From assembly GCF_019175385.1 (NCBI RefSeq), contig NC_083341.1, positions 88,810,321-88,874,320 on the forward strand: a DNA stretch of 64,000 nt, given 5' to 3'. A program made the position numbers and the translations under genes. This document shows, piece by piece, positions 5,224 to 58,556 of the stretch. The notes under the pieces are model-generated. The model searched no databases. It was not told the DNA's origin and worked only from the letters and a program-made list of their open reading frames with translations. Within the stretch, counting starts at the first letter, position 1; the number at the start of each line of letters is the position of its first letter. This DNA is from Lycium barbarum. Lineage: Eukaryota; Streptophyta; Magnoliopsida; Solanales; Solanaceae.

Positions 5224-5258
5224 TGTTTATGGTATGTTGCGCGCCACACTAATAAACA
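5224..5258 (+). ncRNA. Leader stem-loop with GCGCGC loop (E2), dimer-site-like
   Basis: The outer stem TGTTTAT (5224-5230) pairs with ATAAACA (5252-5258). An inner stem GGTATG/CACACT has one mismatch and closes a loop containing the self-complementary hexamer GCGCGC (5239-5244). It lies 45 nt after the primer site. The structure is shared by E4, E5 and both E8 copies. A role in RNA dimerisation is inference by analogy with retroviral leaders. Confidence 0.6.
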
Positions 5259-5305
5259 GGAGGCTACGGAGCATTTAGGAAAAATGACCATCTTTCATCT
5301 TAAGA

Positions 5306-5321
5306 GATCGTGCGATAGAGC
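5306..5321 (+). promoter_or_regulatory. Conserved leader motif before gag (E2)
   Basis: GATCGTGCGATAGAGC lies 47 nt after the leader stem-loop and 47 nt before the gag ATG. It contains the inverted repeat ATCG-tg-CGAT. It occurs at the same spacing in E4 (twice), E5 and E8 (twice), and marks the deletion edge in E3. It could be a packaging or translation signal; the function is unproven. Confidence 0.55.
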
Positions 5322-5368
5322 TGTGTTATAAGATTTTCCCTTCTTAATAGTGTGTTATGATTTTAGAA

Positions 5369-7395
5369 ATGCCTTCAAAGGGAAAAGCTACAACCGCCTA
5401 AAAGGGCAAGACTACAATGAAAAGACGGGTAGAAAGGGAGCCGCCAACGAATGTAGAAGAGTGCGAGTTACATAATGGGGCCCCATCTAATACTTCCTCC
5501 ACCCCGACCAATGTAGAAGAACAAGGAGGAGCTTCAGCTCCAATTCCTCCACCGGTTGCTTCGGGTTAAAAAGTGACCGAGGCCATTCATCTATTGACAC
5601 AGTTAGTTACCTCCCAGGCACAGCGGCAGAATGTGAGTTCAAGTGATCGAGCAGCTAGTACCAGAGCCCGTGATTTTATGAGTTTGAATCCTCCGGAGTT
5701 TTTCGGGTCAAAGCCGGATGAACACCCGCAAGGCTTTATTGATGAGATACTGAGAATACTGAGGATTATCCATGCCTCCGAGACTGAATCTGTGGAGTTG
5801 GCATCTTTTAGACTCCGAGATGTGGCGGTATTGTGGTACAATAATTGGCTATCATCAAGAAAAGAAAATGTGCCTCCTCCCGTGTGGCAAGAATTTGTAG
5901 ATGCTTTCATCCGCCACTATTTGCCACCGGAGGTCCACCGAGCTAGAGCGGATAGGTTCTTAAATCTAAAGCAAGAAAATATGAGTGCTCGGGAATATAG
6001 CCTTCAGTTTAATTCAATGGCTAGATATGCCCCGACTATGGTGGCCGATATGGGAGATAGGGTACACAGGTTTGTGAGTGGCTTGGGGCCACATTTGTTC
6101 AAGGATTTTTTGACGGCTTCGTTGCAGGATGGGATGGACATTTCCCGAATACAAGCCCATGCCCAAAATTTAGAAGGACAACGACATCCGCAAAGGGGTG
6201 ATCGCGATATTGATAGAAGACAAATCAAGAGGGCCAAATCTATGGCGATAGGAAGTGATTATAGATGGGGATCAAGGCAAACACATTCTAGACACTCAGG
6301 CCAGTCGGTGACTAGAACACCTCCTCGATTTATGGGCAGGAGATTCGAGCGCTCCTTTTGTTCAGGACAGGGTCAGAGTTCGAGGGCCTCAGATTCTCAG
6401 TTTGGGGGAGATTATAGTCAGGGGAGACCACCAGTACCACGATGCAGCCAGTGCGGTAGATTGCATTCCGGACAGTGTCGCCAAGGTTCGGATGCTTGCT
6501 ATGCCTGCGGCCGGGTTGGGGACATGGTGCGAGATTGCCCGTCGATGAGTGGTAGAGTTGGGGTTCAGCCCACAGGATCAGTGGCTGGTTCATCTTCAGT
6601 GCGCCCGGTAGGGCAGACTCCCCAGATGTCAGCAGGTCGAGGTAGAGGCAGAGGGGGAGCATCTACTTCAGGTGCCACTCAGCCCCGTGTGGATGCTTTA
6701 GCCGGACGACAGAATCTTGAGTCCTCCCCGGATGTGGTTACAGGTACATTATCCATATTTTCCCATAATGTATATACATTGATAGATCCGAGTTCTACGT
6801 TATCTTATATTACTCCGTGTGTAGCTAGTCGTATTGGGGTGAAACCTGAGCCAATCAAACCTTTTGAGGTATCTACTCCGATTGGTGATCCTGTGATAGC
6901 TAAACAAGTGTATAGGAATTGTGTAATTGTGATATGCGACCGCCAGACTAACGCTGATTTGATTGAGCTGGAAATGTTAGATTTTGATGTGATTATGGGT
7001 ATGGATTGGTTGGCCTCATGCTATGCTAATGTTGATTGCCAAATGAAAGTGGTTATATTCCAATTTCCGGAAGAGCCCGTGCTTGAATGGAAGGGTAATA
7101 CAGCATCTCCAAAAGGTAGGTTTATTTCCTACCTTAAGGCAAGAATGATGATAGCTAAGGGCTATATTTATTACTTAGTTCGAGTATATGACACCGAAGC
7201 AAAGTCACCAACTTTTCAATCCGTTCCGGTAGTGAATGAATTTCCGGATGTATTTCCAGACAAACATCCAAGCCTTCCTCCAGAAAGAGAGATTGACTTC
7301 GCTACCGATGTGTTGCCGGACACTAAGCCTATCTCTATTCCTCTTTACCGAATGGATCCGGCAGAATTGAAAGAGCTGAAGGCACAGTTGAAAGA
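5369..7395 (+). pseudogene. E2 gag-protease and start of RT
   Basis: This is the gag-pol polyprotein start of a Tekay-like element. The ATG at 5369 is chosen because it sits 47 nt after the conserved leader motif and gives the family start MP-x-K-x-K-x-TA. In-frame stops interrupt it at 5399 and 5567; from 5573 it is open to the E3 insertion. Order: capsid (FMSLNPPEFFGSKPDE; LRDVAVLWYNNW), two Cys-rich knuckles near 6440-6540 with the histidine of CYACGRVG-D replaced by Asp, and protease with D-P-S (6785-6793) where relatives have [12 protein letters not shown] follows, then the RT entry region (PISIPLYRM). The frame continues after E3 at 17703. The combination of two stops and weakened motifs indicates a dead copy. 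Confidence 0.88.
7391..7395. repeat. Target site duplication of E3 (left copy)
   Basis: AAAGA precedes the E3 LTR and is repeated after it at 17703-17707. Taking out E3 and one copy restores the E2 RT frame. Confidence 0.92.
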
Positions 7396-7762
7396 TGTTA
7401 TATCCCGTATTTTTGAACGTCGGATTATTTGCTGGGGTGGGGCCCACACACCGAGATTTTTTTTTGGAACATCTGAAAAGTCATATGAATCACATATGTA
7501 AAGTTAAACATAACTCATGAAGTACCCTTGGGCCAAATCAAAGTGGAAGCCCTCCAGACGAATATTTTTAAGAAAACATTTTCGGGTGACCTGACTTTGA
7601 GGGGAAACAACGGTATTATAAGTTTTGAATTTGGAAAGATACCATGAAATAGAAGTTGTAGATAATTGAATTAGCTTTCTATCCATAGGTCGTGGGTTCC
7701 TAGGTGATGTCGGTACAAGGAGATATGAACGTTTTAAGGTCGAAAGGTCAGTGGGATAGGCC

Positions 7763-7838
7763 CAACTCGGGATCAACCGAGTTGACCCAAAAAAATAAAA
7801 TGAAAATTTAGGCCCAATGTTTAAGGGGTGGCCGGCCA
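7763..7838 (+). promoter_or_regulatory. U3 inverted repeats of E3 5' LTR
   Basis: CAACTCGG (7763-7770) and CCGAGTTG (7777-7784) form a perfect 8-bp inverted repeat with a 6-base spacer. The 10-bp palindrome TGGCCGGCCA lies at 7829-7838. Both are 50-125 bp upstream of the TATA box and recur in the 3' LTR (palindrome at 14945-14954). Confidence 0.5.
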
Positions 7839-25915: not shown

Positions 25916-26843
25916 ATGGAAAATTTACTTGCCATAGCTACCCCTAAGACTTAATTATAAATAATAACTACCTTATTTAATATTTAATTTTCACAGCTAT
26001 ATTATTCTAAAATTACATTTCATAGCTACTCAACTATATTTCAATTACTGTGTTTCCACATCTCCTAAATCAACGGTCCATTAGCGATTCTATCCCTAAA
26101 TACACGGTCCATAAGATCTCACCCCTCTCTTTATCTCTCTTACCCTTCTCTTTCTCTCTCTCCGTTACCTATCTCACTCCCAGATCTATTTTAACAGTGG
26201 CAGTATTATAAACAGCTTATTTGGCATTTGAAATGCAAAAATTAAAGTTCAGCTCCTTTTGAAGGGCAATCCGTGCAGTTTCTTCATTGTTGTTACATAT
26301 CGTTGAAAGGGTTTTTTTTTCTTTTCTCTTTTTAATGCTTCCGCCTGAGCATTGAATGCTGCCGGTGGAGTTAGTGGAAGTGATGCTGGTGCCTGGTGAG
26401 TATAATCGGTGGCTTGAAAGAGGCGATGATGATTTTGTAACATATTGCTAATTTCCTTCTCTCACTGATAACGACGCTATTATACCGCCTCTTCGGTATG
26501 AATCCAACGCATACTCTACCTCCGATGAGAGTTGTGGAGCTTCATGCCCACCAAGTGTTTGATAAAATGTTTCAGTATATTTCAATGTACTGTTTCAGTA
26601 CATTTTCGCTGTATTTCTAATTTATGAGACAATTTCTGATATATTTCATTGTATATACGCCTACTACAATTTTATATTTCTTAAACAATCAACCATATTT
26701 CATTGTATTCCAGTGTATATTTTTCTGTATTTGGAAGTATTTCTAAAAGTTTGGAATGAAGTAATTTGGAGAGAGAAACGTGGTTGTCGTGATTGTTGGT
26801 GGTGGTGGAGGAAGTGGCAACAAGGAATGATACCGGGCAATGT
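25916..26843. repeat. AT-rich dispersed repeat (left of E4)
   Basis: No gene is recognised. The left edge (ACTTGCCATAGCTACCCC) resembles terminal parts of DNA-transposon-like plant repeats, but no matching inverted end or target duplication was found. The part 26526-26600 is nearly the same as 37531-37605 on the other side of E4. Motifs of the type GTATTTCA-x-TGTATTT occur repeatedly. Confidence 0.35.
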
Positions 26844-27691
26844 CGGTTCTCCATCCCCTGGGCGTAGGCCTGTAGACGGGCAATGTCCATATCTGTCTGC
26901 AATGATACCGCCATGCACCCGTCAATCAAGTAACGATCCAGCCCCATAACATACCTATGCATCCGATCTGTCATATCTGCCACCACGGCAGGGGCATACC
27001 GGGCCAGGGAATCAAACTCCAAATTATATTCACGGACGCTCCGACCCCTCTGCTGCAGATGCAAAAACCGATCAGCTCGCTCCCGTCGTAACTCTGGGGG
27101 CAGAAAGTGGCGGGTGAAAGCAGTCACAAACTGATCCCACATAGCTGGAGGAGCACCCTCACCCCGGGATAGCTCCCAAGTCTCATACCAATGCGCGGCA
27201 ACATCCCGAAGTCTATGCGAAGCTAGCTCAACCGACTCGGTCTCTGACGCCCTGACCAAGTCTAATGCACGCCGCATCCCCCGAATGAAGTCATGGGGGT
27301 CCTCGTCGGGCTTAGACCCGAAAAACTCTGGAGGGCCGCATAACAAGAACTCCCGAACTCTCAGGCTTTCCCGCCTGTCCTCATCATCATCGTCCCTCCG
27401 CCCGCGTCTGCGAGCCTGTCCGGCTACAATCGTGGTCAACAACTGTACAGCCTCCCGCAGGGTCCTATCCTCCGCCCCTGGCTGAGGAATCTCAGGAGCG
27501 GGTACACGGACCTCTGGAGCTGCTGAAGGTCCCGCTCCAGGCTGTACTAATGGGGGTGTAGCAGACCCCTCAGAATGAGGTGTAACCTCAGGCAAATCAT
27601 AAACACGAGCCCGAGTAGCCCGTTGTGCCTGACTGGTCTCTCCCACCTTCGCCTTGCCCTTTTGGGCCGCCGTTGCCTTCTTCGGAGGCAT
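26844..27691 (-). pseudogene. E4 second gag, 3'-truncated
   Basis: From the ATG at 27691 the translated sequence is the same as the E4 full gag for about 280 residues, up to MENRH. At 26844 the homology stops (matching base 33255 in the full copy) and unrelated repeat DNA begins. The capsid region is complete (FLLCGPPEFFGSKPDEDP, LRDVAAHWYETWELS); the zinc knuckle is missing. The ATG is 48 nt after the leader motif. The near-identity with the other copy shows a recent duplication. Confidence 0.9.
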
Positions 27692-27739
27692 CACTGCAAA
27701 CACAACAACGGGTCAGATCAGAATGACCCTAATAACACA

Positions 27740-27755
27740 GCTCTATCGCACGATC
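27740..27755 (-). promoter_or_regulatory. Conserved leader motif (E4 second copy)
   Basis: Minus-strand GATCGTGCGATAGAGC, 48 nt before the gag ATG. Confidence 0.55.
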
Positions 27756-27806
27756 TAAGATTTCAAAGAAAAGGCAACACAACATCCTAGATGTCCTGTA
27801 GCTTCC

Positions 27807-27842
27807 TGTTTATAGATGTGGTGCACAACACATCGATAAACA
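27807..27842 (-). ncRNA. Leader stem-loop with GTGCAC loop (E4 second copy)
   Basis: TGTTTATCGATGTG pairs with CACATCTATAAACA at 13 of 14 positions around a loop with the self-complementary hexamer GTGCAC (27821-27826). Confidence 0.65.
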
Positions 27843-27885
27843 AGACTCTACTAGACACGGCCTGTAGACATTCCGAGGACAAACC

Positions 27886-27897
27886 GCTCTGATACCA
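27886..27897 (-). other. Primer binding site (E4 second copy)
   Basis: Minus-strand TGGTATCAGAGC, four bases after the LTR end. Confidence 0.92.
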
Positions 27898-28509
27898 CTT
27901 TTGTCACGACCCAGCCCCGTGGGCCGCGACTGGTGCCCTACTGGGACACCCCAAACGAACTCACACCCAGATCATCATAATCAGACTCGTCCAAACACAA
28001 TATACGATACTCAAACTCAACATCGTAATCAGACATCTACCGAACACTCATCCTAAGCAGTCGCCCGTACAAATCAAACAAATCACAAATCAGAAAAGAG
28101 GCGGAAAATACATCGCCAAATTTTCACACACACACATCCGAAGGGTGGCGGAATGCACATCGCCCCCAGAAGCATACACATACATACACAATCAGAGGCC
28201 GACTTGGCCATAGTAGTGTACGGGCCGCTTAAGAACACAAAACTGACTCACATGCGAACACACCGGACCCACGACCCACAAATCTGACTACAGGCCTCTA
28301 GACAAAACAGAACATAAGACATATGAACATAGGACGGGACAGGGCCCCGCCGTACCCACTCATCCAAGTATACAGAATACAGACACAACAAAAGATATGT
28401 ACCAAAAGTAGGCTCCGGATCAAGGGGAGCTCTTCAACACAGCAGACTGAGTAGCCTAAATCGGAGGACCACCCAGACGAGCTTCTGTACCTGCGGGCAT
28501 GAAACACAG

Positions 28510-28548
28510 CCCCCGAAGAAACGGGGGTCAGTACGGGAGAAGTACTGA
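28510..28548 (-). promoter_or_regulatory. Double hairpin of LTR (E4 middle copy)
   Basis: On the element strand TCAGTAC pairs with GTACTGA, and CCCCCG (from 28522-28527) pairs with CGGGGG (from 28510-28515). CCCGCAG|GTAC follows. Confidence 0.65.
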
Positions 28549-30653
28549 GTATGTAAAGCAGAGGGTACAGAAATCACAAACACAGCGGGAGTCAGAAAGA
28601 ACAAACACACCGTTATCGCAAACAAAGCAAACCTGTGCGGGAGGCGAACGTACAAATGCAAATCAAATCATGTATAGGGTTTAGGAACGTGGTCACCCCC
28701 CGACGCTGGTGCCACAACACATCATAGCTCCAGAAGTTTTCAAATCTCCGTACAATCTCCAGACACATCATATCACACACACATCATATCATCAGAACAT
28801 ATCAAATGCCATATCACATCATAACTCCATAAACGGTAACCGACCCTATGGCGAGGCCTCGGAAACCGTAACACATCATAACTCCCGAATATAACATAGT
28901 GCGCACGATCACAAAGTCGGCCCGGGTACCGACGAACGAAGTCATAGCAGACAGCACGAACAGAGTAGTGCAGAAACCATATGCATATCAAAAATAGTTT
29001 ACCGAACTCAACATATAATTTACATATAAGTATACACTGACACCAAGAGGCTCGAAGTAGGAATCGGATTGATAAAAGTAGGCATATAGAGGTTACGAAG
29101 TTCCGAGCTGTCAAATTCGTAAGAAAACTGTTCATGAGTCACTCTTTCGGAATTCTCACATCTTCCAAAGTACAGAACGTGCATTAATGGCACAGGAAGT
29201 TTCCAACGCATCCTTGGGTCATAAACAAACAGTCGCAGATTAAAACAGACACAAACGAATCAAACAAACCGAATAAGGGGAGCCTCGGGGCTCGCGGGCC
29301 CACCTCGGGGCAAATTGAGGCGGCGGACACAAATCGCAGATTTTTGGCTTCATATAGTCATTTACAAAAGTTTCGAAGAGTTTCGGACTCAACAGCACAA
29401 GTTATGGAGGTACGAGTGTTCTTTTACCCAAATGGGACCAAAAGGTTTCAATCGCGCTGAATGAATAGTGCTCGAACTTGAACCTCGATTTCCGAGAGCA
29501 GAGTTATTCCCGAGATTCCGAAATTTACCTAGTAGGTCTAGGGCATGCCAAAAGAATAAGAGGTAGGCTTTACATACCTGGTTGGCGCCTTACGCTCCTC
29601 AAATCGAAATTCCCGTTTCGTCCAGAAACTGCAAATGGTCACTTTTACCAGTTACTATTCATGAGAGTTGACATTTTCATTTTTGGGCTATACTCGGCTA
29701 CCGAAATTTCGGCAGCATTTCCCCTATATATCTAACGCCCCCGAGACTTAGCTCGGCTCAAAATACAACAACAACAACAACCCAAACATCATTATACATT
29801 ACAAACCACACTAGATTCGAAATTTCACCTTAATACATAAGTTGGTAATCCTATTTCCAAACTTCACAATTTCAACTCATACCCACATTATTGTATTCAT
29901 TCATTCAAGATTATTTCACTACATAACAAACAAGTTCCAAACCATATACAAACATCCCCAAAGTTCACTACTTTCAAATTTTCATTCAAAACACCAAAAG
30001 TTACGACGAGCGTTCTAACTTGCGTCGTTTCATTCCAAATTCGTTATTATCAACCATAAACCTTATTTAAGGTCTTTAGTGTCATAAATATACTATGATA
30101 TACACCAATATCCCAAAGGTATACATTTTTTCCGATAACGTCCGAAATCATTTTCTAACACCAATTCAATTCTCCAAACATTCATTTACGATACAAAGGT
30201 CATGACAACACAACTAACAACCTTAAACAAAATCAATTCACACTTGTTCTCCTATCTTAAGGCACACGGCCAAACACACTCTTTTTGCACACACACGCCA
30301 TGCACAACACAACACCATTCCAAAATCTTTACGCCAATTCAATTACTAACACATATACATCCATTTCATATCATTAAAACATCAAAACCTTACCTTAATC
30401 TTAAGATCCCGATTCGCCGCAAACGTCGTCCTCTCGTCAAACTAGTTGTACCACCACGAAGAGCACCTCGAACCCATCAATTTTTCCAAAAGAGGCTAGG
30501 CGATTGGATTAGAAACAAGCCACGAATTTTTTTTTTTTTTTTTTTTCTTTCTCTTTCTTTTTCGGCCGAAACCCCTTTCTCTTTGTTCTTGGATTTTTTT
30601 TTTGATTAAAGTCTTGATAATTACCAAGTGAGCATGATATATATCCATAATAG

Positions 30654-30678
30654 GAGTCATGTGCTTAGCACATGACTC
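30654..30678 (-). promoter_or_regulatory. 25-bp U3 palindrome of E4 (middle LTR)
   Basis: Two 12-bp arms, GAGTCATGTGCT and AGCACATGACTC, are perfect inverted copies around one base. On the element strand the palindrome ends about 11 bp before GATATATATC. The TGGCCGGCCA palindrome lies just upstream (30704-30713). Confidence 0.7.
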
Positions 30679-30960
30679 TTTAAAAGTGGGCTTGGGCCTC
30701 CCTTGGCCGGCCACTACACAAAATTTGGGCCTCAACTTTGTTCAAATTCTCTTGGCCCAATTCATAATATGTCCCGCTTTGTAATTCCCGAAACTAATTT
30801 CCGAAATTCCAAATTTACCCTCGGCCTTTCCCAATGTCTTAACATCAATGATTCCATAACCAACATCGTCATATTCACCACAATTAAAAATATTTCTTCA
30901 TAAGGCACAATCTTTATTATTTCTACGTTTTTCACTTACACGAAAATACGGGACATAACA

Positions 30961-32587: not shown

Positions 32588-34102
32588 TTACTGACACACA
32601 CAAAAAGAATATCGCACAATACTGAGGTACAAACCTATCATTGCACATATTTTATTCAGAAAAAGGGTTAGTAATATACCTGGGTCTGTGTCTGGGGGTG
32701 CCTCTGGGTCCCGACGACCAGTCAAAGCGTAGATGCGGTTCGAGGGACCGCTAGAATCTGAAGCCCCACCACGGCCTCTACCGCGGCCCGCTGGTGCTGG
32801 CATACCTCGCCCCGTAGAGCGCATGGCCGAAGGGGTAGATGACGAACCAGCAACGGATCTCATCGGCGGTGCTGCGCTACCGGAACCACCTGCCCACGGG
32901 CAATCCCGCATGATATGGCCCTGGCGGCCGCAAGCAAAACAGGTCCCCGTGGCCCTGAAGCACTCACCTGGGTGCGATCTCCCACAATACGAACACTGGG
33001 GTATGGGTGGCCTAGACTGACTGGGACCCCTGCTCACCTGAGGACCTGGGGCTCTGGAACTCTGGTCTGCCCTGGACAGTCCTGCTCCATCAAACCTCTT
33101 ACCAACAGACTGTGTGTCCCGGCCTGACGGAGGAATGTACCCACTGGACTGATACTGAGGCTGCCCGCTCCGAGAATCTCCAGAATACCCCGCTGATCTG
33201 GCCCTCTTGGGCCGTCTCCCATCATACTCTCGGCTGGGCCGATCTGCTCGGTGCCGGTTCTCCATCCCCTGGGCGTAGGCCTGTAGACGGGCAATGTCCA
33301 TATCTGTCTGCAATGATACCGCCATGCACCCGTCAATCAAGTAACGATCCAGCCCCATAACATACCTATGCATCCGATCTGTCATATCTGCCACCACGGC
33401 AGGGGCATACCGGGCCAGGGAATCAAACTCCAAATTATATTCACGGACGCTCCGACCCCTCTGCTGCAGATGCAAAAACCGATCAGCTCGCTCCCGTCGT
33501 AACTCTGGGGGCAGAAAGTGGCGGGTGAAAGCAGTCACAAACTGATCCCACATAGCTGGAGGAGCACCCTCACCCCGGGATAGCTCCCAAGTCTCATACC
33601 AATGCGCGGCAACATCCCGAAGTCTATGCGAAGCTAGCTCAACCGACTCGGTCTCTGACGCCCTGACCAAGTCTAATGCACGCCGCATCCCCCGAATGAA
33701 GTCATGGGGGTCCTCGTCGGGCTTAGACCCGAAAAACTCTGGAGGGCCGCATAACAAGAACTCCCGAACTCTCAGGCTTTCCCGCCTGTCCTCATCATCA
33801 TCGTCCCTCCGCCCGCGTCTGCGAGCCTGTCCGGCTACAATCGTGGTCAACAACTGTACAGCCTCCCGCAGGGTCCTATCCTCCGCCCCTGGCTGAGGAA
33901 TCTCAGGAGCGGGTACACGGACCTCTGGAGCTGCTGAAGGTCCCGCTCCAGGCTGTACTAATGGGGGTGTAGCAGACCCCTCAGAATGAGGTGTAACCTC
34001 AGGCAAATCATAAACACGAGCCCGAGTAGCCCGTTGTGCCTGACTGGTCTCTCCCACCTTCGCCTTGCCCTTTTGGGCCGCCGTTGCCTTCTTCGGAGGC
34101 AT
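32588..34102 (-). CDS. E4 Gag polyprotein (intact, gag-only element)
   Basis: Gag forms the cytoplasmic particle that packages element RNA. The frame is uninterrupted. The ATG at 34102 (MPPKKATAAQKGK) is preferred over the upstream in-frame ATG at 34114 because it sits 48 nt after the leader motif, as in E2, E5 and E8. It gives about 504 residues: a Pro-rich N-terminus; capsid region at about 115-290 (PPEFFGSKPDEDP, LRDVAAHWYETWELS, SLARYAPAVVADM); an Arg/Ser/Gln-rich linker; two Cys-rich knuckles at about 370-405, the second an intact CCHC (CFACGRQGHIMRDC); and a Gly/Arg-rich tail. It ends about 45 residues after the usual gag-protease junction and lacks the protease D-P-G. It is the only full-length gag here and the best candidate for a working protein. 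Confidence 0.85.
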   Translation of the reverse strand: MPPKKATAAQKGKAKVGETSQAQRATRARVYDLPEVTPHSEGSATPPLVQPGAGPSAAPEVRVPAPEIPQPGAEDRTLREAVQLLTTIVAGQARRRGRRDDDDEDRRESLRVREFLLCGPPEFFGSKPDEDPHDFIRGMRRALDLVRASETESVELASHRLRDVAAHWYETWELSRGEGAPPAMWDQFVTAFTRHFLPPELRRERADRFLHLQQRGRSVREYNLEFDSLARYAPAVVADMTDRMHRYVMGLDRYLIDGCMAVSLQTDMDIARLQAYAQGMENRHRADRPSREYDGRRPKRARSAGYSGDSRSGQPQYQSSGYIPPSGRDTQSVGKRFDGAGLSRADQSSRAPGPQVSRGPSQSRPPIPQCSYCGRSHPGECFRATGTCFACGRQGHIMRDCPWAGGSGSAAPPMRSVAGSSSTPSAMRSTGRGMPAPAGRGRGRGGASDSSGPSNRIYALTGRRDPEAPPDTDPGILLTLFLNKICAMIGLYLSIVRYSFCVCQ

Positions 34103-34150
34103 CACTGCAAACACAACAACGGGTCAGATCAGAATGACCCTAATAACACA

Positions 34151-34166
34151 GCTCTATCGCACGATC
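34151..34166 (-). promoter_or_regulatory. Conserved leader motif (E4 first copy)
   Basis: Minus-strand GATCGTGCGATAGAGC, 51 nt after the stem-loop and 48 nt before the gag ATG. Confidence 0.55.
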
Positions 34167-34217
34167 TAAGATTTCAAAGAAAAGGCAACACAACATCCTA
34201 GATGTCCTGTAGCTTCC

Positions 34218-34253
34218 TGTTTATAGATGTGGTGCACAACACATCGATAAACA
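34218..34253 (-). ncRNA. Leader stem-loop with GTGCAC loop (E4 first copy)
   Basis: TGTTTATCGATGTG and CACATCTATAAACA pair at 13 of 14 positions. The loop contains GTGCAC (34232-34237). It lies 43 nt after the primer site. Confidence 0.68.
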
Positions 34254-34296
34254 AGACTCTACTAGACACGGCCTGTAGACATTCCGAGGACAAACC

Positions 34297-34308
34297 GCTC
34301 TGATACCA
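34297..34308 (-). other. Primer binding site (E4 first copy)
   Basis: Minus-strand TGGTATCAGAGC, four bases from the LTR end at 34313. Confidence 0.92.
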
Positions 34309-34920
34309 CTTTTGTCACGACCCAGCCCCGTGGGCCGCGACTGGTGCCCTACTGGGACACCCCAAACGAACTCACACCCAGATCATCATAATCAGACTCG
34401 TCCAAACACAATATACGATACTCAAACTCAACATCGTAATCAGACATCTACCGAACACTCATCCTAAGCAGTCGCCCGTACAAATCAAACAAATCACAAA
34501 TCAGAAAAGAGGCGGAAAATACATCGCCAAATTTTCACACACACACATCCGAAGGGTGGCGGAATGCACATCGCCCCCAGAAGCATACACATACATACAC
34601 AATCAGAGGCCGACTTGGCCATAGTAGTGTACGGGCCGCTTAAGAACACAAAACTGACTCACATGCGAACACACCGGACCCACGACCCACAAATCTGACT
34701 ACAGGCCTCTAGACAAAACAGAACATAAGACATATGAACATAGGACGGGACAGGGCCCCGCCGTACCCACTCATCCAAGTATACAGAATACAGACACAAC
34801 AAAAGATATGTACCAAAAGTAGGCTCCGGATCAAGGGGAGCTCTTCAACACAGCAGACTGAGTAGCCTAAATCGGAGGACCACCCAGACGAGCTTCTGTA
34901 CCTGCGGGCATGAAACACAG

Positions 34921-34959
34921 CCCCCGAAGAAACGGGGGTCAGTACGGGAGAAGTACTGA
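34921..34959 (-). promoter_or_regulatory. Double hairpin of LTR (E4 5' copy)
   Basis: Same two stems as the middle LTR: TCAGTAC/GTACTGA and CCCCCG/CGGGGG. Confidence 0.65.
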
Positions 34960-37066
34960 GTATGTAAAGCAGAGGGTACAGAAATTACAAACACAGCGGG
35001 AGTCAGAAAGAACAAACACACCGTTATCGCAAACAAAGCAAACCTGTGCGGGAGGCGAACGTACAAATGCAAATCAAATCATGTATAGGGTTTAGGAACG
35101 TGGTCACCCCCCGACGCTGGTGCCACAACACATCATAGCTCCAGAAGTTTTCAAATCTCCGTACAATCTCCAGACACATCATATCACACACACATCATAT
35201 CATCAGAACATATCAAATGCCATATCACATCATAACTCCATAAACGGTAACCGGCCCTATGGCGAGGCCTCGGAAACCGTAACACATCATAACTCCCGAA
35301 TATAACATAGTGCGCACGATCACAAAGTCGGCCCGGGTACCGACGAACGAAGTCATAGCAGACAGCACGAACAGAGTAGTGCAGAAACCATATGCATATC
35401 AAAAATAGTTTACCGAACTCAACATATAATTTACATATAAGTATACACTGACACCAAGAGGCTCGAAGTAGGAATCAGATTGATAAAAGTAGGCATATAG
35501 AGGTTACGAAGGTCCGAGCTGTCAAATTCGTAAGAAAACTGTTCATGAGTCACTCTTTCGGAATTCTCACATCATCCAAAGTACAGAACGTGCATTAATG
35601 GCACAGGAAGTTTCCAACGCATCCTTGGGTCATAAACAAACAGTCGCAGATTAAAACAGACACAAACGAATCAAACAAACCGAATAAGGGGAGCCTCGGG
35701 GCTCGCGGGCCCACCTCGGGGCAAATTGAGGCGGCGGACACAAATCGCAGATTTTTGGCTTCATATAGTCATTTACAAAAGTTTCGAAGAGTTTCGGACT
35801 CAACAGCACAAGTTATGGAGGTACGAGTGTTCTTTTACCCAAATGGGACCAAAAGGTTTCAATCGCGCTGAATGAATAGTGCTCGAACTTGAACCTCGAT
35901 TTCCGAGAGCAGAGTTATTCCCGAGATTCCGAAATTTACCTAGTAGGTCTAGGGCATGCCAAAAGAATAAGAGGTAGGCTTTACATACCTGGTTGGCGCC
36001 TTACGCTCCTCAAATCGAAATTCCCGTTTCGTCCAGAAACTGCAAATGGTCACTTTTACCAGTTACTATTCATGAGAGTTGACATTTTCATTTTTGGGCT
36101 ATACTCGGCTACCGAAATTTCGGCAGCATTTCCCCTATATATCTAACGCCCCCGAGACTTAGCTCGGCTCAAAATACAACAACAACAACAACCCAAACAT
36201 CATTATACATTACAAACCACACTAGATTCGAAATTTCACCTTAATACATAAGTTGGTAATCCTATTTCCAAACTTCACAATTTCAACTCATACCCACATT
36301 ATTGTATTCATTCATTCAAGATTATTTCACTACATAACAAACAAGTTCCAAACCATATACAAACATCCCCAAAGTTCACTACTTTCAAATTTTCATTCAA
36401 AACACCAAAAGTTACGACGAGCGTTCTAACTTGCGTCGTTTCATTCCAAATTCGTTATTATCAACCATAAACCTTATTTAAGGTCTTTAGTGTCATAAAT
36501 ATACTATGATATACACCAATATCCCAAAGGTATACATTTTTTCCGATAACGTCCGAAATCATTTTCTAACACCAATTCAATTCTCCAAACATTCATTTAC
36601 GATACAAAGGTCATGACAACACAACTAACAACCTTAAACAAAATCAATTCACACTTGTTCTCCTATCTTAAGGCACACGGCCAAACACACTCTTTTTGCA
36701 CACACACGCCATGCACAACACAACACCATTCCAAAATCTTTACGCCAATTCAATTACTAACACATATACATCCATTTCATATCATTAAAACATCAAAACC
36801 TTACCTTAATCTTAAGATCCCGATTCGCCGCAAACGTCGTCCTCTCGTCAAACTAGTTGTACCACCACGAAGAGCACCTCGAACCCATCAATTTTTCCAA
36901 AAGAGGCTAGGCGATTGGATTAGAAACAAGCCACGAATTTTTTTTTTTTTTTTTTTTTTCTTTCTCTTTCTTTTTCGGCCGAAACCCCTTTCTCTTTGTT
37001 CTTGGATTTTTTTTTTGATTAAAGTCTTGATAATTACCAAGTGAGCATGATATATATCCATAATAG

Positions 37067-37091
37067 GAGTCATGTGCTTAGCACATGACTC
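37067..37091 (-). promoter_or_regulatory. 25-bp U3 palindrome of E4 (5' LTR)
   Basis: Same perfect 12-bp arms as in the middle LTR, upstream of a TATATATC box on the element strand. TGGCCGGCCA is at 37117-37126. Confidence 0.7.
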
Positions 37092-37373
37092 TTTAAAAGT
37101 GGGCTTGGGCCTCCCTTGGCCGGCCACTACACAAAATTTGGGCCTCAACTTTGTTCAAATTCTCTTGGCCCAATTCATAATATGTCCCGCTTTGTAATTC
37201 CCGAAACTAATTTCCGAAATTTCAAATTTACCCTCGGCCTTTCCCAATGTCTTAACATCAATGATTCCATAACCAACATCGTCATATTCACCACAATTAA
37301 AAATATTTCTTCATAAGGCACAATCTTTATTATTTCTACGTTTTTCACTTACACGAAAATACGGGACATAACA

Positions 37374-38404: not shown

Positions 38405-41400
38405 TGTTGGATTATTAATATCGATTCCTGTGCTTCCTGAATCAATTAGACCAATTCCAAGGCTAGCTAGCTGGTGGAACTCACGAATTAATTCTTTCTT
38501 CTCCGGAGGAACCTCACATAGGCTGCTCATTGATCTGCGGCTAAGTGCATCAGCACATTTGCCTTTCCGGAGTGGTATAAAATACTCACATCATAATCTT
38601 TCAGTAGCTCTAACCATCGTCTCTGCCGTAGATTCAATTCCTTCTGCTTGAAAATATATTGAAGACTCTTGTGATCTGTGTAAATATCAACGTGAACACC
38701 ATACAAGTAATGTCTCCACATCTTTAGTGCATGAATAACTGCAGCCAATTCAAGATCATGAGTTAGGTAGTTCTTTTCATGTTTTCGTAATTGTCTTGAA
38801 GCATAAGCAATAACTTTACCGTGCTGCATCAACACACATCCTAATCCAACACCAGAAGCATCACAATATACAACATAACCATCTGGCCCTTATGGGAGTG
38901 TCAAGACTGGAGCTGAGGTTAGCCTATCTTTCAATTCCTAAAAACTGCATTCACAAGCGTCATTCCACTGAAATTTAGCTGACTTCTGGGTTAGCTTCGT
39001 CAATGGGGCTGAAATAGATGAAAACCCTTCCACGAATCTCCTATAGTAACCTGCCAATCCCAGAAAACTACGGACTTCTGTAGGCGTTGTAGTCCTTGGC
39101 CAAGTCTTCACAGCTTCAATTTTCTGAGTATCCACTCGGATGCCATCATCTGAAATAACATGACCCAAAAATGTCACAGAATTCAGCCAAAACTTGCACT
39201 TTGAAAATTTTGCATAAAATTCTCGAGTTCGACGAATTCCAAGGACAATACGTAAATGGTCTGCATTTTCTGATTCTGTGCGAGAGTATTCCAGAATATC
39301 ATCAATGAACACAATTATGAATAGATCCAAGAGGGGCCTAAATACATTATTCATCAAATTCATGAACACTGCCGGGGCATTAGTTAGCCCAAATGACATC
39401 ACCCGAAATTCATAATGCCCATATCTCGTTCGGAAGGTTGTTTTGGGAATATCTTCTTCTTTAACTCTCACTTGATGATAACCTGACCTTAGACCTATTT
39501 TGGAAAACCACTTGGCACCCTTTATCGTCACCTTATTCAACTGCCTGTAATCAATACACATCCGTAAAGAACCATCTTTCTTTCGCACAAATTGGACTGG
39601 TGCTCCCCAAGGTGATGAACTAGGCCTAATGAATCCTTTTTCAAGCAAATCCTTTAATTGTGCCTTTATCTCTTTCAATTCTGTAGGAGCCATTCGGTAA
39701 GGAGGAATAGAAATAGGCTTGGTGTCCGGCAACACATCAATAGTGAAATCAATCTCTCTTTCTGGAGGAAGACCTGGAAGTTCATCTAGAAATACATTCG
39801 GAAACTCGTTCACTACCGGGACAGATTGGAAAGTTGGTGACTTTGCTTCGGTGTCATGAACTCGAACTAGGTGATAAATGTAAATTTTTGCTATCATCTT
39901 TCTTGCCTTAAGGTAGGAAATAAACCTACTTCTTGGAGATACTGTATTACCCTTCCATTCAAGCACGGGTTCTCCCGGAAATTGAAATCGAACTACTTTC
40001 ATTCGACAATCAACATTATCATAACATGAGGCCAACCAATCCATACCCATAATCACATCGAAATCTAACATTTCCAGCTCAACTAAATCAACTTTAGTCT
40101 GGTAGTCACATATCGCAAATACACAATTTTTATACACTTGTCTAGCTATCACGGGATCACCAACCGGAGTAGACACCTCAAAAGGTTTAATTGGCTCGGG
40201 TTTCACCCCAATACGACCAACAATATATGGAGTAATTTAAGATAGTGTAGGACCCGGATCTATCAATGCATATACATCATGAGAAAATATAGATAATATA
40301 CCTGTAACCACATCCAGGGAGGACTCGAGATCCTGTCGTCCGGCTAAAGCATAGATACGGGGCTGGAAATCACCTGAACTGGACGCTCCCCCTCTGCCTC
40401 TACCTTAGCCTGCTGGAATCTGGGGAGTCTGCCCTACCGGACGCACTGAAGAAGAACCGACCGCCGATCCTGTAGGCTGAACCCTACCTCTACCGTACCT
40501 CGAGGGGAAATCACGCATCACGTACCCAGTCTGTCCACAAACATAACAAGAATATGAACCTTGGCGACATGGCCCCGAATGTAATTCTCTGTACTGACTA
40601 CATCGTGGAACAGGTGGTCTCCTCTGGCTATAATCACCCCCAAACTGGGAACCTGAAGCTCTTGAGTTCTAACCCTGCCCTGGATGAATAGAGCGGTCAT
40701 ATCTCCTACCTACAAATCACGGAGGTGCACTAGTCACCGGCTGGCCTGAGTGTCTAGAATATGACTGCCTCAATCCCCCTCTATAGTCGCTACTGACACC
40801 CATAGATCTGGCCTTCTTACTTCGCCCTCTATCGATATCACGCTCACCCCTTTGCGGATGTTGTTGCTCTTCTGAATGCGGGAAATATCCATCCCATCTT
40901 GCAATGAAGCTGTTAGACAATCTTTAAACAAATGTGGCCCTAGGCGACTCACAAATCTGTGCACTCTATCTCCTATGTCGGCCACTATAGTCGGAGCATA
41001 CCTAGCCAATGAATTAAACTGAAGGCTATACTCCTGGGCACTCATATTTCCTTGTTTCAGATTTAAGAATCTATCCGCTCTAGCTCAACGAACCTCGGGT
41101 GGCAAGTAGTGGTGGATGAAGGCATCTACAAATTCTTGCCAAACTGGAGGAGGCGCATTCTCTTTCCTTGAGGATATCCAATTATTATACCATAAGACCA
41201 CCACATCCTGGAGTCTATAAGATGCTAACTCCATAGACTCAGTTTTGGAGGCATGAATAATTTTTAATGTTCTCAACATTTCATCAATAAAACCTTGCGG
41301 GTCTTTATCCGGCTTTGACCCGAAAAACTCCAGAGGATTCAAATTCATGAAATCACGGGCTCTAGTACTAACTGCCCGGTCACTTGGACCCGAACTCTGC

Positions 41401-41735: not shown

Positions 41736-41782
41736 CTCATAAGAAGAATAATGGTCATTTTCCTAAATGCCCAGTAGCCTCC

Positions 41783-41817
41783 TATTTATTAGTGTGGCGC
41801 GCAACACACCATAAACA
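41783..41817 (-). ncRNA. Leader stem-loop with GCGCGC loop (E5)
   Basis: Outer stem TGTTTAT/ATAAATA and inner stem GTGTG/CACAC surround a loop with the hexamer GCGCGC (41797-41802). Relative to E4 the inner stem has a compensated A-T to G-C change. It lies 45 nt after the primer site. Confidence 0.62.
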
Positions 41818-41862
41818 AGACTCTACTAGACACGGCTCGTAGACACTTCCTAGGACTGAAAT

Positions 41863-41874
41863 GCTCTAATACCA
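41863..41874 (-). other. Primer binding site of E5 (one mismatch)
   Basis: Minus-strand TGGTATTAGAGC, one base off the initiator tRNA-Met complement, four bases from the LTR end. Confidence 0.88.
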
Positions 41875-50238: not shown

Positions 50239-50794
50239 CTGCGTTCATGCCCGCAGGTACAGACGCTCATTTCGGAGACCCGCCAGCCTAGGATATCTAT
50301 TCAGCTACTTTGGAGTGCTCCTTTGTTCTGGAGCCTAGCTTGTGGTATAACTCCCTTTTGTTCCATATGTGTGTGTTTATTCGGGGTACGGCGGGGCCCT
50401 GTCCCGTCATATGATACTGTCAGTACTCTTAGAGGTCTGTGGACATTTGTGTGGATCTGTATATAGTTGTTGTTGCGTTGTATGAATACGACTTATGTTT
50501 GGGGCGTACCCATTCGTAATGGCAGCCTTGTCAGCTTGCATATATATATATATATATATATGTTTGGGATGTTGCGTGTAGTGGCAGCCTTGTCGGCTTG
50601 CGTAGATATATATATGTTGTTGTTGAAGATCGTAACCCCTCAGGAGACAGGTGCCTACGACATACAGAATTGTGACAGCTTTAAAATAACGTCCTGCCTT
50701 TTTATACAAATAAGTTCATAATATGCTGGTTATAAAAGATTATAGTTAACAGGGGATATGAGTGTCCAACTCGGGCACTAGTCGAGTAGAGTCT

Positions 50795-50830
50795 TGTTTA
50801 TTGATGTGTTGTGCACCACATTTATAAACA
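50795..50830 (+). ncRNA. Leader stem-loop with GTGCAC loop (E8 unit 1)
   Basis: TGTTTATTGATGTG pairs with CACATTTATAAACA with one mismatch and one G-T pair. The loop hexamer GTGCAC is at 50811-50816. The primer site that should precede it has been deleted. Confidence 0.62.
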
Positions 50831-50875
50831 GGAAGCTATAGGACATTTAGGATGTCATCTTTGCTTCTCATTCTA

Positions 50876-52441: not shown

Positions 52442-55400
52442 CTCGAGAGGTAAGTTTATTTCATACCTCAAGGCAAGGGAGATGGTCAGAAAGGGCTATA
52501 TTTATCATCTGGTTCGTGTGTATGACTTGAAAGCTGAGGCACCGACTCTTCAGACAGTCCCGGTAGTTAATGAATTTCCAGATGAACTTCCAGGCCCTCC
52601 TCCTGAGCGTGAGATAGAGTTCACTATAGATGTATTGCCAGATACTCAACCCATATCTATTCCTCCTTACAGAATGGCACCTGCAGAATTGAAAGAATTG
52701 AAGGAGCAACTGAGAGATCTATTAGAGAAGGGCTTCATTAGGCCCAGTACATCACCTTGGGGCGCACCGGTATTATTTGTAAGAAAGAAGGATGGGTCGC
52801 TGCGGATGTGTATTGATTATAGGCAGCTGAACAAAGTAACAATAAAGAATAGATATCCCCTCCCCAGGATTGATGATTTATTTGACCAGTTGCAGGGTGC
52901 TAAATGTTTTTCAAAGATAGACTTGCGGTAAAGTTATCACCAGGTGCGGGTAAAGGAAGTAGACATTCCGAAAACTGCATTCAAGACCCGATACGGGCAT
53001 TACGAGTTTAAAGTGATGTCTTTTGGGTTGACCAATGCTCCAGCCGTGTTTATGGACTTGATGAACAGGGTCTTTAAGCCATTCCTCGACTTGTTCGTGA
53101 TTGTATTTATTGATGATATTCTGGTCTATTCACGATCGGAAGACGAGCATGCAGATCACTTGAGGACTGTACTTAAGGTCCTCCAGCATCAGAAATTATA
53201 TGCTAAGTTCTCTAAATGTGAATTCTGGTTGACTTCAGTAGCATTTCTGGGGCATATTGTTGGAGCAGACGGTATTCGGGTAGACTCGCAGAAAATTGAG
53301 GCCGTCAAGACTTGGCCTAGACCTACGACGCCTACTAAGGTACGTAGCATTTTGGGGCTAGCAGGATATTACAGGAGATTTGTAGAAAAGTTTGCTTCGA
53401 TTTCAGCGCCTTTAACAAGGCTAACACAGAAAGCGGCTAAATTCCAGTGGACCGATGCTTGCGAATGAAGTTTCCAATTATTGAAAGATAAGTTGACCAC
53501 GGCTCCAGTTCTAACTCTTTCTGAGGGGCCAGATGGCTATGTTATTTATTGTGATGCTTCCGGTGTTGGGTTGGGTTGCGTGTTGATGCAGCACGGCAGA
53601 GTTATCACCTATGCCTCCCGACAGCTCAGGAAGCACGAGAGAAATTATCCTACCCATGACCTGGAGTTGGCGGCGGTGATACATGCCTTGAAGAAATGGA
53701 GATATTATCTATATGGCGTGCATGTTGATATTTATACAGATCATAAGAGTCTCCAGTATATCTCTAAGCAGAAGGAGCTGAATTTGTGGCAAAGGAGGTG
53801 GCTAGAGTTGCTGAAAGATTATGATGTCGATATCCTATATCACCCAGGAAAGGCTAACGTTGTAGCAGATGCACTCAGCCGTAAATCTATGGGTAGTTTG
53901 GCAGGTGTACAACCAGGAAGGAAAGAGATAGTCCATGAGATTCATCAGCTAGCTAGTCTTGGTGTTCGTTTGGCTGATTCTGATGATGGCAGAATTTTTA
54001 TGCGAGGTGTTGCTGAGTCCTCTATATTAGAAGAAGTGAAGAGATGTCAATATGAGGATCCCATTCTTGTACATTACAGAGACACAACACTTCAGAAGGA
54101 CGAGACCCCATTCAAGATGTCATCTGATGGAGTACTACGATACATAGACAGATTATGTGTACCTGAGGTTGCAGGATTACGACAGCAGGTAATGGGGGAG
54201 GCACACTATGCTCGTTATTTTGTTCACCTAGGATAAAAAAAAATGTATCATGAACTTAGGTGTTTGTATTGGTGGGATGGTATGAAAAAGGACATAGCAG
54301 AATTCGTGGCCCGGTGTCCGAATTGCCAACAGGTCAAGATAGAGCACCAGAAGGCTGGAGGACTACTACAGGAGATGGAGATTCCGAGCTGGAAATGGGA
54401 GGTAATTAATATGGATTTCGTCACAGGTCTACCTCGCACTCCACGGAAATATGACTCTGTCTGGGTTATTGTTGATAGATTGACAAAATCAACCCACTTT
54501 CTTCTAGTCAGGACTATGTATTCAGCTGAGGATTATGCCAGATTGTATCTTAAGGAGATAGTGAGACTTCATGGGGTTCCCACAGCTATTATCTCGGATA
54601 GAGGGGCCCAGTTTACATCTAAGTTCTGGAGATCCTTCCAGGAGGGATTGGGGACACAGGTGAGTCTCAGCACAACATTTCACCCTCAGACTGACGGACA
54701 GGCCGAGCGAACCATCCAGACATTACAAGACATGTTACAGGCCTGTGTTATTGATTTTAGAGGTAGCTGGGATGATCACTTGCCGCTTATTGAGTTTTCT
54801 TATAATAACAGTTACCATTCTAGTATCCAGATGGCACCTTATGAGGCTTTATATGGCAGAAAGTGCAGATCACCCATAGGCTGGTTTGACGTTGTTGATA
54901 CTAAGTTTATAGGCCCAGATATGGTTCAGCAGGCTGTTGATAAGGTGAAGCTTATTCAGGAAAGGTTACTGGTAGCCCAGAGTCGGCAGAAGTCATATGC
55001 AGATAATCGACGAACACTTGGAATTTCAGGTTGGCGATTGGGTGTTCTTGAAGGTGTCACCCATGAAGGGTGTTATGAGATTCGGCAAGAAAGGGAAGTT
55101 GAGCCCGAGATACATTGGACCTTATTAGGTTATCCGTAAGGTAGGCCAAGTTGCCTACGAGTTAGATCTACCAGCCGATTTACAAGCAGTACATCCAGTC
55201 TTTCATGTGTCAATGCTTCGGAAGTATATAGGCGATCCTTCCAGGGTGTTTCCTGCAGATGATATCCAGGTAACAGAGGAGCTATCATACGAAGAGCAGC
55301 CTGTAGCCTTACTTGATCGACAAATCAGAAGGTTGCGAACAAAAGATGCGGCGTCGGTTAAAGTGTTGTGGCAGAACAATAATAGGGAGGAGATGACTTG

Positions 55401-55478
55401 GGAGGCTGAAGAGGAGATGAAAAAGAAATATCCTCACTTGTTTTCCACGCTTACAGGTAATCTAAACCCCCTTACTTG
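52442..55478 (+). pseudogene. E8 unit 1 pol (RT, RNase H, integrase, chromodomain)
   Basis: The protease core is deleted. RT begins with [11 protein letters not shown] and [13 protein letters not shown] at about 52929 interrupts SKIDLR-SYHQ; after it comes the catalytic F-I-D-D (53106-53117). A stop at about 53466 precedes RNase H ([20 protein letters not shown]). A frameshift with an A run lies near 54235-54243. Integrase follows with CPNCQQVKIEH and a complete D,D-35-E triad: Asp at 54414, Asp at 54597, Glu at 54705. A frameshift near 55010 affects the C-terminal region; 55207-55478 carries VSMLRKY and the chromodomain-like tail (VKVLWQNNN, TWEAEEEMKKKYPHLF). Several single-base lesions make it inactive, but all catalytic residues visible from RT onward are kept. 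Confidence 0.88.
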
Positions 55479-55565
55479 ATTGTGTTAATTGTCTGCTCAA
55501 TCTATATGTTAGCGATAAGGAAAACCCTTCCCAAGACTCTTATAGAACCTGACGGGATAAAAATT

Positions 55566-55880: not shown

Positions 55881-57957
55881 CAAAATTTGAGTGGGACACA
55901 TGTCCAAATCATGTAATGCATATATATAACACAAATTCTGATTCATTCATCACTAACTAGCTCATTTCCACATTTACAAAGCAAAAAAAAAAATTTAGAG
56001 ATAGAGAGAGAGGCTCTCGGCTACAAGCTGGCCGAGAATAACCTTCTCCAAATTGATCCAAAAATCAGTTTCTTAAGCAATTCAACTCCCTTGAAGGTGT
56101 GTATTAACGTGTAGCATTCATTGGAATAGCAAGAACAAGTGTTAAAATTCAAGAAGTGAAAGTGAAGGGCTAGCCGATTGAAGGGTTTAGTTACAAGGTA
56201 AGAATTGATCCCTTCTCATGTATTTTATGGTGAATTGAATGTTTATTAATGTGCATGTTGGTATTGGACTGTTTTTCTTGAAGTTGAAGTGGGCCGTGTG
56301 CTATAGACCTAGGTGAAATGATGCTTAATCTTCTTGTACATGTATTGGGAATGACTTGAATGTGTTGTAGTATGGATAAATGGATGAAAATCATGAAGTT
56401 GTTGTAGTTGTGTTGAAGTCGTGTAGGGGACTGCTTTAGGAGAAGTTATGGACTGTTTTGTGTCATGTTTTAATTGTTGTTGTTATGGACATTGTGGTGT
56501 ATTGTATGCATTATGGAAAGATGAATTGGGGTGTAAAAGAAATGAATTATGTTGAAGTAGGAAAACAGTCCCAAACCGTGGACTGTTTTAATGATAGCAG
56601 TGGATTAGTGCGTTTTGAATGTTGATTGTTATTATGAACGTATAGTGAAAGTGAAGCTCAATGATTCAAGTTGAAATTGAAATGGTTTGTGGGCTGTTGT
56701 AAGAATAAATATGATGCTAAAACAGTTCCAATAATCGTATAAGTAATGTTGTAAACGTGTTGTTGTCGTTGTAGTTGAAGTTGGAAAACTGCGAATTGAA
56801 AATGGTAATGTTGTGCATGCTGTTTGGCCGTGAATAGGGGACTGTTTTGAATGATGTACGGACTGTCCAAAGTTCCCTTAAGTCATGTTTAACCAAGTTC
56901 AGATTGATACTTGAAAGTATGAGTAGCAATATTAGTTTGTAGTACTAGTTGGTTTGAATACGAACGAAACGTCGTCTAAATGTTAGAAAGGGATTGTTAA
57001 CGTTAAAATACATATTGAATTCCCTCATAGACTAATCGTAGCTCTTGATATCTTGATATAGGATAAGTACCATTGGGCAGCAAGTACAAGTTATAATACG
57101 ACTAAACGCTAAAGGTATGTAAAGCCTATTCCTTCTTTTTCTTGGCATATCCTAGACGTAAGTAAGAAATGATATGAACCTTGGGGTAAATTCTACTCTC
57201 TAGTTCCAAGCATAACTTATGATTCTATTCATTCCTTAATGTTATTGTCACGAGCCTACTATATGATTGACTAATAAATGATGTATATAAGTTCCTACTC
57301 TTAAAGAATTGCATAATTAGAGGCATACTTGGCTTTCAAAAGCTACACCACGTTAAATTGATACATGTACATGAAATCTGAAACGTTCCTTGCTATAGTT
57401 TGTAATGAGATTTAAAAAAAAAACTGAATATGATTATAATCCTGACACTTGAGAGCTGGTTAGTTACTTATCTATTGTGTCTCTAAAGATGATTTCAATG
57501 TATGCGGTTGCTTATTATTCTGCTCGTGCTTACCGCTATATCGTTCACTGAGTCCCGGGCCAGGACACGTTTTCGTGCGTATATTTATTACATTATTCAC
57601 CGAGTCCCTCACTAGAGGGCCGGGACACGTTATATATATATGATGATATGATTATAGGATGATACGATGATATGATGATATGATGGTATGATAACATGAT
57701 GATATGGGGATGGCGGCCAGGAGGGCATATGTTTATTATTCACCGAGTCCCTCACTAAAGGGCCGGGACACATTATATATGTTATATACAGAATGATTAT
57801 TCAGCTTTGATTACAAAACTCTATATTGATATTGATATGAGAACGATACAGATGAATTATGTTCAAAGGTAAGTTTTATGAATTTATGTTTGTTGCATTG
57901 GGTCCTACACACCTTGTCTCAGTATGAGTCTATTACTATATTTCATGCTTTACATGC

Positions 57958-57996
57958 TCAGTACATATTTCGTACTGACCCCCTTTCTTCGGGGGG
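57958..57996 (+). promoter_or_regulatory. Double hairpin of LTR (E8 middle copy)
   Basis: TCAGTAC/GTACTGA and CCCCC (57979-57983)/GGGGG stems are kept, although sequence just downstream is deleted. Confidence 0.65.
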
Positions 57997-58464
57997 CTGC
58001 GTTCATGCCCTTTTGTTACATATGTGTGAGTTTATTCGGGTAACGGCGGGCCCCTGTCCCGTCATATGATACTGTCAGTACTCTTAGAGGTCTGTGGAAA
58101 TTTGTGTGGGTCTGTATATAGTTGTTGTTGCGTTGTATGAATACGACTTATGTTTGGGGCGTACCCATTCGTAATGGCAGCCTTGTCAGCTTGCATATAT
58201 ATATATATATATGTTTGGGATGTTGCGTGTAGTGGCAGCCTTGGCGGCTTGTGTAGATATATATATGTTGTTGTTGAAGATCGTAACTCCTCAGGAGACA
58301 GGTGCCTACGACATACAGAATTGTGACAGCTTTAAAATAACGTCCTGCCTTTTTATACAAATAATTTCATAATATGCTGGTTATAAAAGATTATAGTTAA
58401 CAGGGGATATGAGTGTCCCACTTGGGCACTAGTCACGGCCTACGGGGTTGGGTCGTGACAAAAG

Positions 58465-58476
58465 TGGTATCAGAGC
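58465..58476 (+). other. Primer binding site (E8 unit 2)
   Basis: TGGTATCAGAGC, four bases after the LTR end. Confidence 0.92.
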
Positions 58477-58520
58477 GGTTCAATCCTCGGAGTGTCTACA
58501 GACCATGTCGAGTAGAGTCT

Positions 58521-58556
58521 TGTTTATCGATGTGTTGTGCACCACATTTATAAACA
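58521..58556 (+). ncRNA. Leader stem-loop with GTGCAC loop (E8 unit 2)
   Basis: TGTTTATCGATGTG and CACATTTATAAACA pair with one mismatch and one G-T pair. The loop hexamer is at 58537-58542. It lies 44 nt after the primer site. Confidence 0.65.

Follow-up and report, generated by a model that had tools for sequence, protein, structure and literature searches.

Do the leader RNAs of plant long terminal repeat (LTR) retrotransposons carry a site at which two genomic RNAs meet loop to loop, comparable to the dimer initiation site (DIS) of HIV-1? The question is raised by 64,000 nucleotides of Lycium barbarum DNA (assembly GCF_019175385.1, contig NC_083341.1, positions 88,810,321 to 88,874,320 of the forward strand; this whole stretch is referred to as the window), in which a sequence-only reading had picked out six retrotransposon leaders with a stem-loop and a self-complementary loop hexamer. 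We propose that this hairpin serves a large, chromovirus-like Ty3/gypsy family as its kissing-loop dimer initiation site, a reading to which we assign a probability of about 0.8 from sequence comparison. The comparison supports the hairpin, its conservation and the presence of three self-complementary hexamers whose copy numbers are high or moderate; it also indicates that the self-complementary loop has apparently been selected for.

All six stem-loops are present where they had been placed, and five of the leaders retain a primer binding site (PBS):

5209..5273, plus strand: extended leader hairpin, loop GCGCGC at 5239-5244, A-C mismatch in the inner stem; fold -19.6 kcal/mol, z -1.97
27792..27857, minus strand: extended leader hairpin, loop GTGCAC at 27821-27826; fold -29.3 kcal/mol, z -5.71
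34203..34268, minus strand: extended leader hairpin, loop GTGCAC at 34232-34237; its 66 bases identical to the 27792 copy; z -5.71
41768..41832, minus strand: extended leader hairpin, loop GCGCGC at 41797-41802; fold of 41769-41832 -29.6 kcal/mol, z -5.04
50780..50845, plus strand: extended leader hairpin, loop GTGCAC at 50811-50816; PBS lost; z -5.88
58506..58571, plus strand: extended leader hairpin, loop GTGCAC at 58537-58542; fold -26.5 kcal/mol, z -5.06
5167..5178, plus strand: primer binding site, 0 mismatches
27886..27897, minus strand: primer binding site, 0 mismatches
34297..34308, minus strand: primer binding site, 0 mismatches
41863..41874, minus strand: primer binding site, 1 mismatch
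58465..58476, plus strand: primer binding site, 0 mismatches

The PBS, which we take to be of the initiator-Met type, was scored as a 12-base match (0-1 mismatch), and in the five leaders that keep it the reported spacing of 43-45 nt to the stem holds; by sequence and by alignment it is lost from the 50795 leader. The outer stem, described as kept throughout, is exactly TGTTTAT..ATAAACA in five of the six leaders, the sixth (41783-41817, minus strand) having ATAAATA and hence an outer-stem G-U pair. These five exact matches in the window compare with a shuffle mean of 0.02, and none of 100 shuffles reaches five.

The hairpin is bigger than first reported (∼ 66 nt). The reported stem is stacked over a further lower stem, from which it is separated by a two-by-two internal loop of purines (AG facing AG or GG in the window folds). 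Minimum free energies (MFEs) of -26.5 to -29.6 kcal/mol and z-scores of -5.0 to -5.9 were obtained for five of the six window hairpins, the 5224 copy being the exception. The consensus fold of the five distinct rows (RNAalifold) has -26.4 kcal/mol versus a shuffled mean of -8.4 (z -7.2), and 0 of 500 column shuffles were as good. Eight bases form the apical loop, two followed by the hexamer, with no unpaired base on the 3′ side. The loop palindrome is the sole self-complementary hexamer that occupies one homologous place across all five distinct window leaders.

The same leaders contain a GGTTC-ATCC-like stretch directly 3′ of the 12-base PBS (58477-58486 and equivalents), which looks like the T arm of a tRNA, or the complement of that arm, and is possibly an extended primer contact. 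A second strongly conserved block, GATYGTGCGATAGAGC, lies between the hairpin and the gag ATG (58602-58617 and equivalents in other leaders). The inner stem of the GATGTG class holds an ATG (58530-58532 and equivalents) that starts a seven-codon upstream frame crossing the loop.

Six leaders do not amount to six independent observations. The blocks 26841-30960 and 33252-37373, which hold the 27807 and 34218 leaders, are 4.1 kb long, 99.8% identical, on the same strand and ∼ 6.4 kb apart, and represent either a recent duplication or an assembly repeat; the blocks of the 50795 and 58521 leaders are 93-97% alike. Because of these near-identical blocks, the window contains two independent loop classes and only one GTGCAC/GCGCGC contrast, namely GCGCGC with GGTGTG/CACACT stems versus GTGCAC with GATGTG/CACATY stems. 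Of the paired inner-stem change previously read from it, one A-U to G-C pair stands and the remaining inner-stem differences are G-U pairs or a bulge. The chance that two neutral changes leave a palindrome is 0.07-0.16, and covariation from the window was set aside as support, since one contrast is too weak alone.

Loop variation was therefore assessed across the 1.67 Gb assembly that contains the window. Leaders were picked independently of the hairpin, by a PBS followed by the GATYGTGCGATAGAGC block 112-142 bases downstream; this pattern has 18,677 matches genome-wide and the reversed pattern 0. We read the 100 leaders of the 18,677 that were listed (contig 1, 1.8-26.2 Mb), and with four window leaders these make a set of 104 rows. 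A self-complementary loop hexamer is found in 87 of the 100 leaders (GTGCAC 58, GCGCGC 23, GCCGGC 6); the other 13 comprise 12 single-step hexamer variants and one insertion or deletion. Both of the hexamers said to alternate are thus self-complementary, but GCCGGC is a third state, which requires two transversions from GCGCGC and keeps the pairing. In the 104 rows, loop pair 1/6 is GC in 99 (other 4), pair 2/5 is TA in 63, CG in 37 and CA in 3, and pair 3/4 is GC in 90 and CG in 9 (other 5). Each of the 25 stem pairs is standard in at least 94% of these rows, the closing G-C pair after the hexamer is present in 104/104, and the hexamer is unpaired in the MFE structure of 91 of the 100 genome leaders. 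Variation of the two bases 5′ of the hexamer is uncoupled: TT 74, AA 13, TA 7, TG 3, TC 2, AC 1 (n = 100). The UU loop flank noted in the window is accordingly the commonest state, but not the only one. The loop AAGCGCGC occurs in three of the 100 leaders (L096, L152 and L159), all with the AA flank, and was seen again among the first 100 GCGCGC places listed genome-wide.

Counted genome-wide by a pattern with an asymmetric left anchor, hairpins with any hexamer number 26,974. GTGCAC (13,503) and GCGCGC (6,462) account for 19,965 of them and the one-sided mixtures GTGCGC (550) and GCGCAC (396) for 946, leaving 6,063 in which GCCGGC and other loops form one undivided class. The first 100 one-sided copies listed per type are scattered across many backgrounds, as decay would be. 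Both outer bases are changed in 47 loops genome-wide, of which an ad hoc rule classes 14 as palindromic (ACGCGT 9, ATGCAT 3, ACCGGT 1, CCCGGG 1), 18 as non-palindromic and 15 as shifted by an insertion or deletion; for the nine ACGCGT copies the best matches are at ∼ 79-93%, and these copies do not form a single young subfamily. Since two transitions alone yield complementary ends, we draw no conclusion from these 47 loops.

Has the symmetry of the loop been maintained, or does it follow from descent? Two trees were built from the 104 short sequences, one from the flanks only and one from all columns except the hexamer (midpoint rooting, no outgroup), and the null for paired changes was obtained by placing each column's changes randomly on branches (2000 runs). 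On the flank tree, the three loop pairs show 8 same-branch double changes versus 1.16 under the null (0/2000 reach 8); the second tree gives 4 versus 0.40 (1/2000). Most of the 8 paired changes lie on single leaves. Loop-breaking changes fall on 0 internal and 11 terminal branches, compared with 140 internal and 185 terminal (or 141 and 203) for unpaired leader columns outside the hairpin (Fisher p 0.003-0.004). Stem-breaking changes are distributed similarly (3 internal and 59 terminal on the flank tree, or 5 and 55; Fisher p 3e-10 to 2e-7), while the unpaired bases 5′ of the hexamer vary freely (7 internal, 9 terminal, flank tree). Broken loops, being confined to terminal branches, look like decay after insertion. 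Non-self-complementary loops at neutral frequency, which would speak against the proposal, are not what we see: the breaks are terminal only and the paired changes exceed a tree-aware null.

What would such a loop pair with? The three loop pairs cannot form inside one hexamer, which must therefore pair either with a different molecule or with a second copy of the site. For a sequence transcribed as part of the leader, downstream of the PBS and ahead of gag, the obvious candidate is a further genomic RNA. We infer that what selection has kept is the pairing of two genomic RNAs, and suggest a role for it in packaging or template switching. First contact between two full-length transcripts would come from base-pairing of their loop hexamers, which are identical and self-complementary. 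In line with the HIV-1 model, the stems underneath could afterwards swap strands to give an extended duplex, a step in which the purine internal loop might be a weak point or a contact for Gag. Computed self-duplex energies are -7.9 (GUGCAC), -10.9 (GCGCGC) and -11.7 kcal/mol (GCCGGC), against -6.6 for GUGCAC/GCGCGC, -2.2 for GUGCAC/GCCGGC and -2.8 kcal/mol for GCGCGC/GCCGGC. From these values each hexamer class should prefer its own kind, least clearly in the case of GUGCAC with GCGCGC, and such a preference is what we would expect of the RNAs. The central G-C pairs are kept in all three classes. We tentatively consider, at somewhat less than even odds, that at least three mutually mismatched self-complementary loops in one lineage and genome constitute a dimerisation code for own-kind pairing, converged on the HIV-1 hexamers; if so, the code would limit co-packaging and recombination between families.

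The proteins encoded in the window place these elements:

5573..7501, plus strand: open reading frame (ORF) with Ty3-type gag and retroviral aspartyl protease (Pfam PF03732, PF19259, PF08284)
38938..40206, minus strand: ORF with protease and reverse transcriptase (Pfam PF08284, PF00078; homologues)
55129..55479, plus strand: frame with integrase SH3 and a chromodomain-like match (PF24626; PF00385 at 24.5 bits versus a cut-off of 25.1)

Pfam matches to Ty3-type gag, protease, reverse transcriptase, RNase H and integrase fall on separate ORFs of several window elements. The chromodomain matches score 24.5 and 24.7 bits, just under the cut-off of 25.1 (E about 2e-5). We describe these elements as a large Ty3/gypsy family, chromovirus-like in type. 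Among the 120 protein matches listed, the named plant ones of highest identity are from Solanaceae (Lycium 76%, Nicotiana 73%, Solanum up to 70%); Tanacetum, Gossypium and others are also among them, and many matches are unnamed.

Viral contigs yielded no relative by PBS-hairpin pattern, by protease-reverse transcriptase protein or by alignment, and phages and plasmids gave no match. Eleven viral loci (L038-L048) found with two conserved-block patterns were rejected as unrelated by eye. Contigs filed as bacterial genomes had no match to the PBS-hairpin pattern; alignment returned 37 loci from them (L001-L037) with Ty3/gypsy-like pol, and some of these contigs look like plant or other eukaryote contamination. 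The PBS is exact in L003 and L006, the latter with an ATG shortly after it, and has one mismatch in L021. A protein search with the leader-embedded frame gave six short ORFs, of which the five that reach the loop all read L-C-T, which is compatible with GTGCAC but does not prove it; with the frame for the GCGCGC loop none was found. These short predicted public proteins (P0121-P0126) look like translated LTR ends and leaders of such retrotransposons and not like the products of genes.

Several observations weigh against a kissing-loop site. Among the stem pairs, double changes on the same branch are not in excess (4 versus 4.54, and 2 versus 3.21), as expected if stems change via G-U states. 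The flank tree reconstructs the large TA/CG switch as two one-sided internal steps, with pairing kept through U-G. Subfamily-level hexamer switches are few, and the trees are short and unrooted by outgroup. Some single-leaf switches may be recombination, one such case being L097 (C1:9036967-9037120), which has the loop type of one family and the flanks of another and is perhaps recombinant near the hairpin; recombination between families is probable and limits the tree tests. Palindromes are imperfect in 13 of the 100 leaders and in the 946 one-sided copies counted. Finally, L003, a distant relative (55% reverse transcriptase identity), has a long interrupted post-PBS hairpin (1234-1460) with a non-palindromic UGUU loop, so that a self-pairing loop is not universal.

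In one alternative, the leader needs the hairpin for something else (Gag binding, translation or reverse transcription), and the palindromes are founder accidents spread by clonal expansion and recombination. The paucity of subfamily-level switches in families that are clonal, and the stable hairpin of L003 without a palindrome, speak for it. We nevertheless regard it as unlikely, because it has to accommodate three different palindromes, one of them two transversions away, an excess of paired loop changes over the null, and loop breaks that never occur on internal branches while the adjoining unpaired bases vary freely. It is very improbable that the hexamer has its partner at a complementary site farther along its own RNA, with the symmetry a mere coincidence. 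Retroviral leaders are known to form long-range pairings (PMC5874298), but the palindrome in all three classes would be left unexplained, and the hexamer stays unpaired in the 91 MFE structures mentioned above, which cover the PBS-to-block region only. A role of the palindrome in DNA, as a dimeric-protein site or cruciform, is highly unlikely even though palindromes are two-fold symmetric in DNA too, since a protein site should hold its sequence, whereas here the hexamer changes and only symmetry is kept. The hexamer also lies in the loop of a hairpin that is transcribed and conserved, and the G-U pairs retained when its stem changes are characteristic of RNA.

A kissing-loop dimer initiation site thus remains our preferred reading, and its closest parallel is HIV-1. 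Three papers describe the HIV-1 DIS (stem-loop SL1) as a self-complementary apical-loop hexamer between PBS and gag, mainly GCGCGC or GUGCAC with GUGCGC as the third reported state, on a stem with an internal loop (PMC516451, PMC5874298, PMC3605237). The central G-C pairs are reported there as critical (PMC5874298), and discordant GCGCGC/GUGCAC sites cut co-packaging 2.3-2.7-fold (PMC3605237). The plant hairpin shares the self-complementary apical hexamer (6/6 window and 87/100 genome leaders), the internal loop below it and, in some copies, AA before the hexamer. It differs in that purines do not flank the hexamer on both sides (5′ AA in 13/100, TT in 74/100, no unpaired 3′ base), and in that its third state is GCCGGC, with GTGCGC only a minor, scattered variant. 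The likeness would be one of convergence, the plant site presumably being independent of the HIV-1 DIS.

Among retrotransposons, the yeast element Ty3 is nearest. Its DS/PAL6 is a self-complementary CUGCAG (nt 391-396) in the apical part of a short hairpin close to the 5′ end, for which a kissing-loop role has been proposed and in vitro dimer data exist (PMC11381356). Ty3 is likewise Ty3/gypsy (yeast Metaviridae), with a palindromic hexamer in a hairpin apex; its hexamer, however, is apparently inside GAG, whereas the plant hexamer sits in the leader before the gag ATG and is known from comparison of sequences. For Ty1, dimerisation is modelled as hairpin loop-loop contacts between two different loops with complementary 7-nt motifs (PMC5454406). 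Ty1 is therefore similar as an LTR retrotransposon with loop-loop contacts and different in using two loops and in belonging to the Pseudoviridae. BARE, from barley, is a Copia-type and not a Ty3/gypsy element. It is a plant LTR retrotransposon said to have conserved dimerization and packaging signals (PMC3735527). The accessible part of another plant LTR retrotransposon paper has retroviral SL1 as background only (PMC3902901). A full-text literature search, with most subscription papers outside its reach, found no such site in plant Ty3/gypsy elements, and genomic RNA pairing in plant LTR retrotransposons seems little studied, with one passing mention found. A single genome here supplies ∼ 27,000 hairpins, with three loop classes as well as naturally occurring one-sided variants, which makes the family a ready-made mutational series. 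If our reading is correct, it would give a molecular basis for recombination between some retrotransposon families and not others, and a self-kissing hexamer with central G-C pairs would be a recurrent solution in yeast, plants and HIV.

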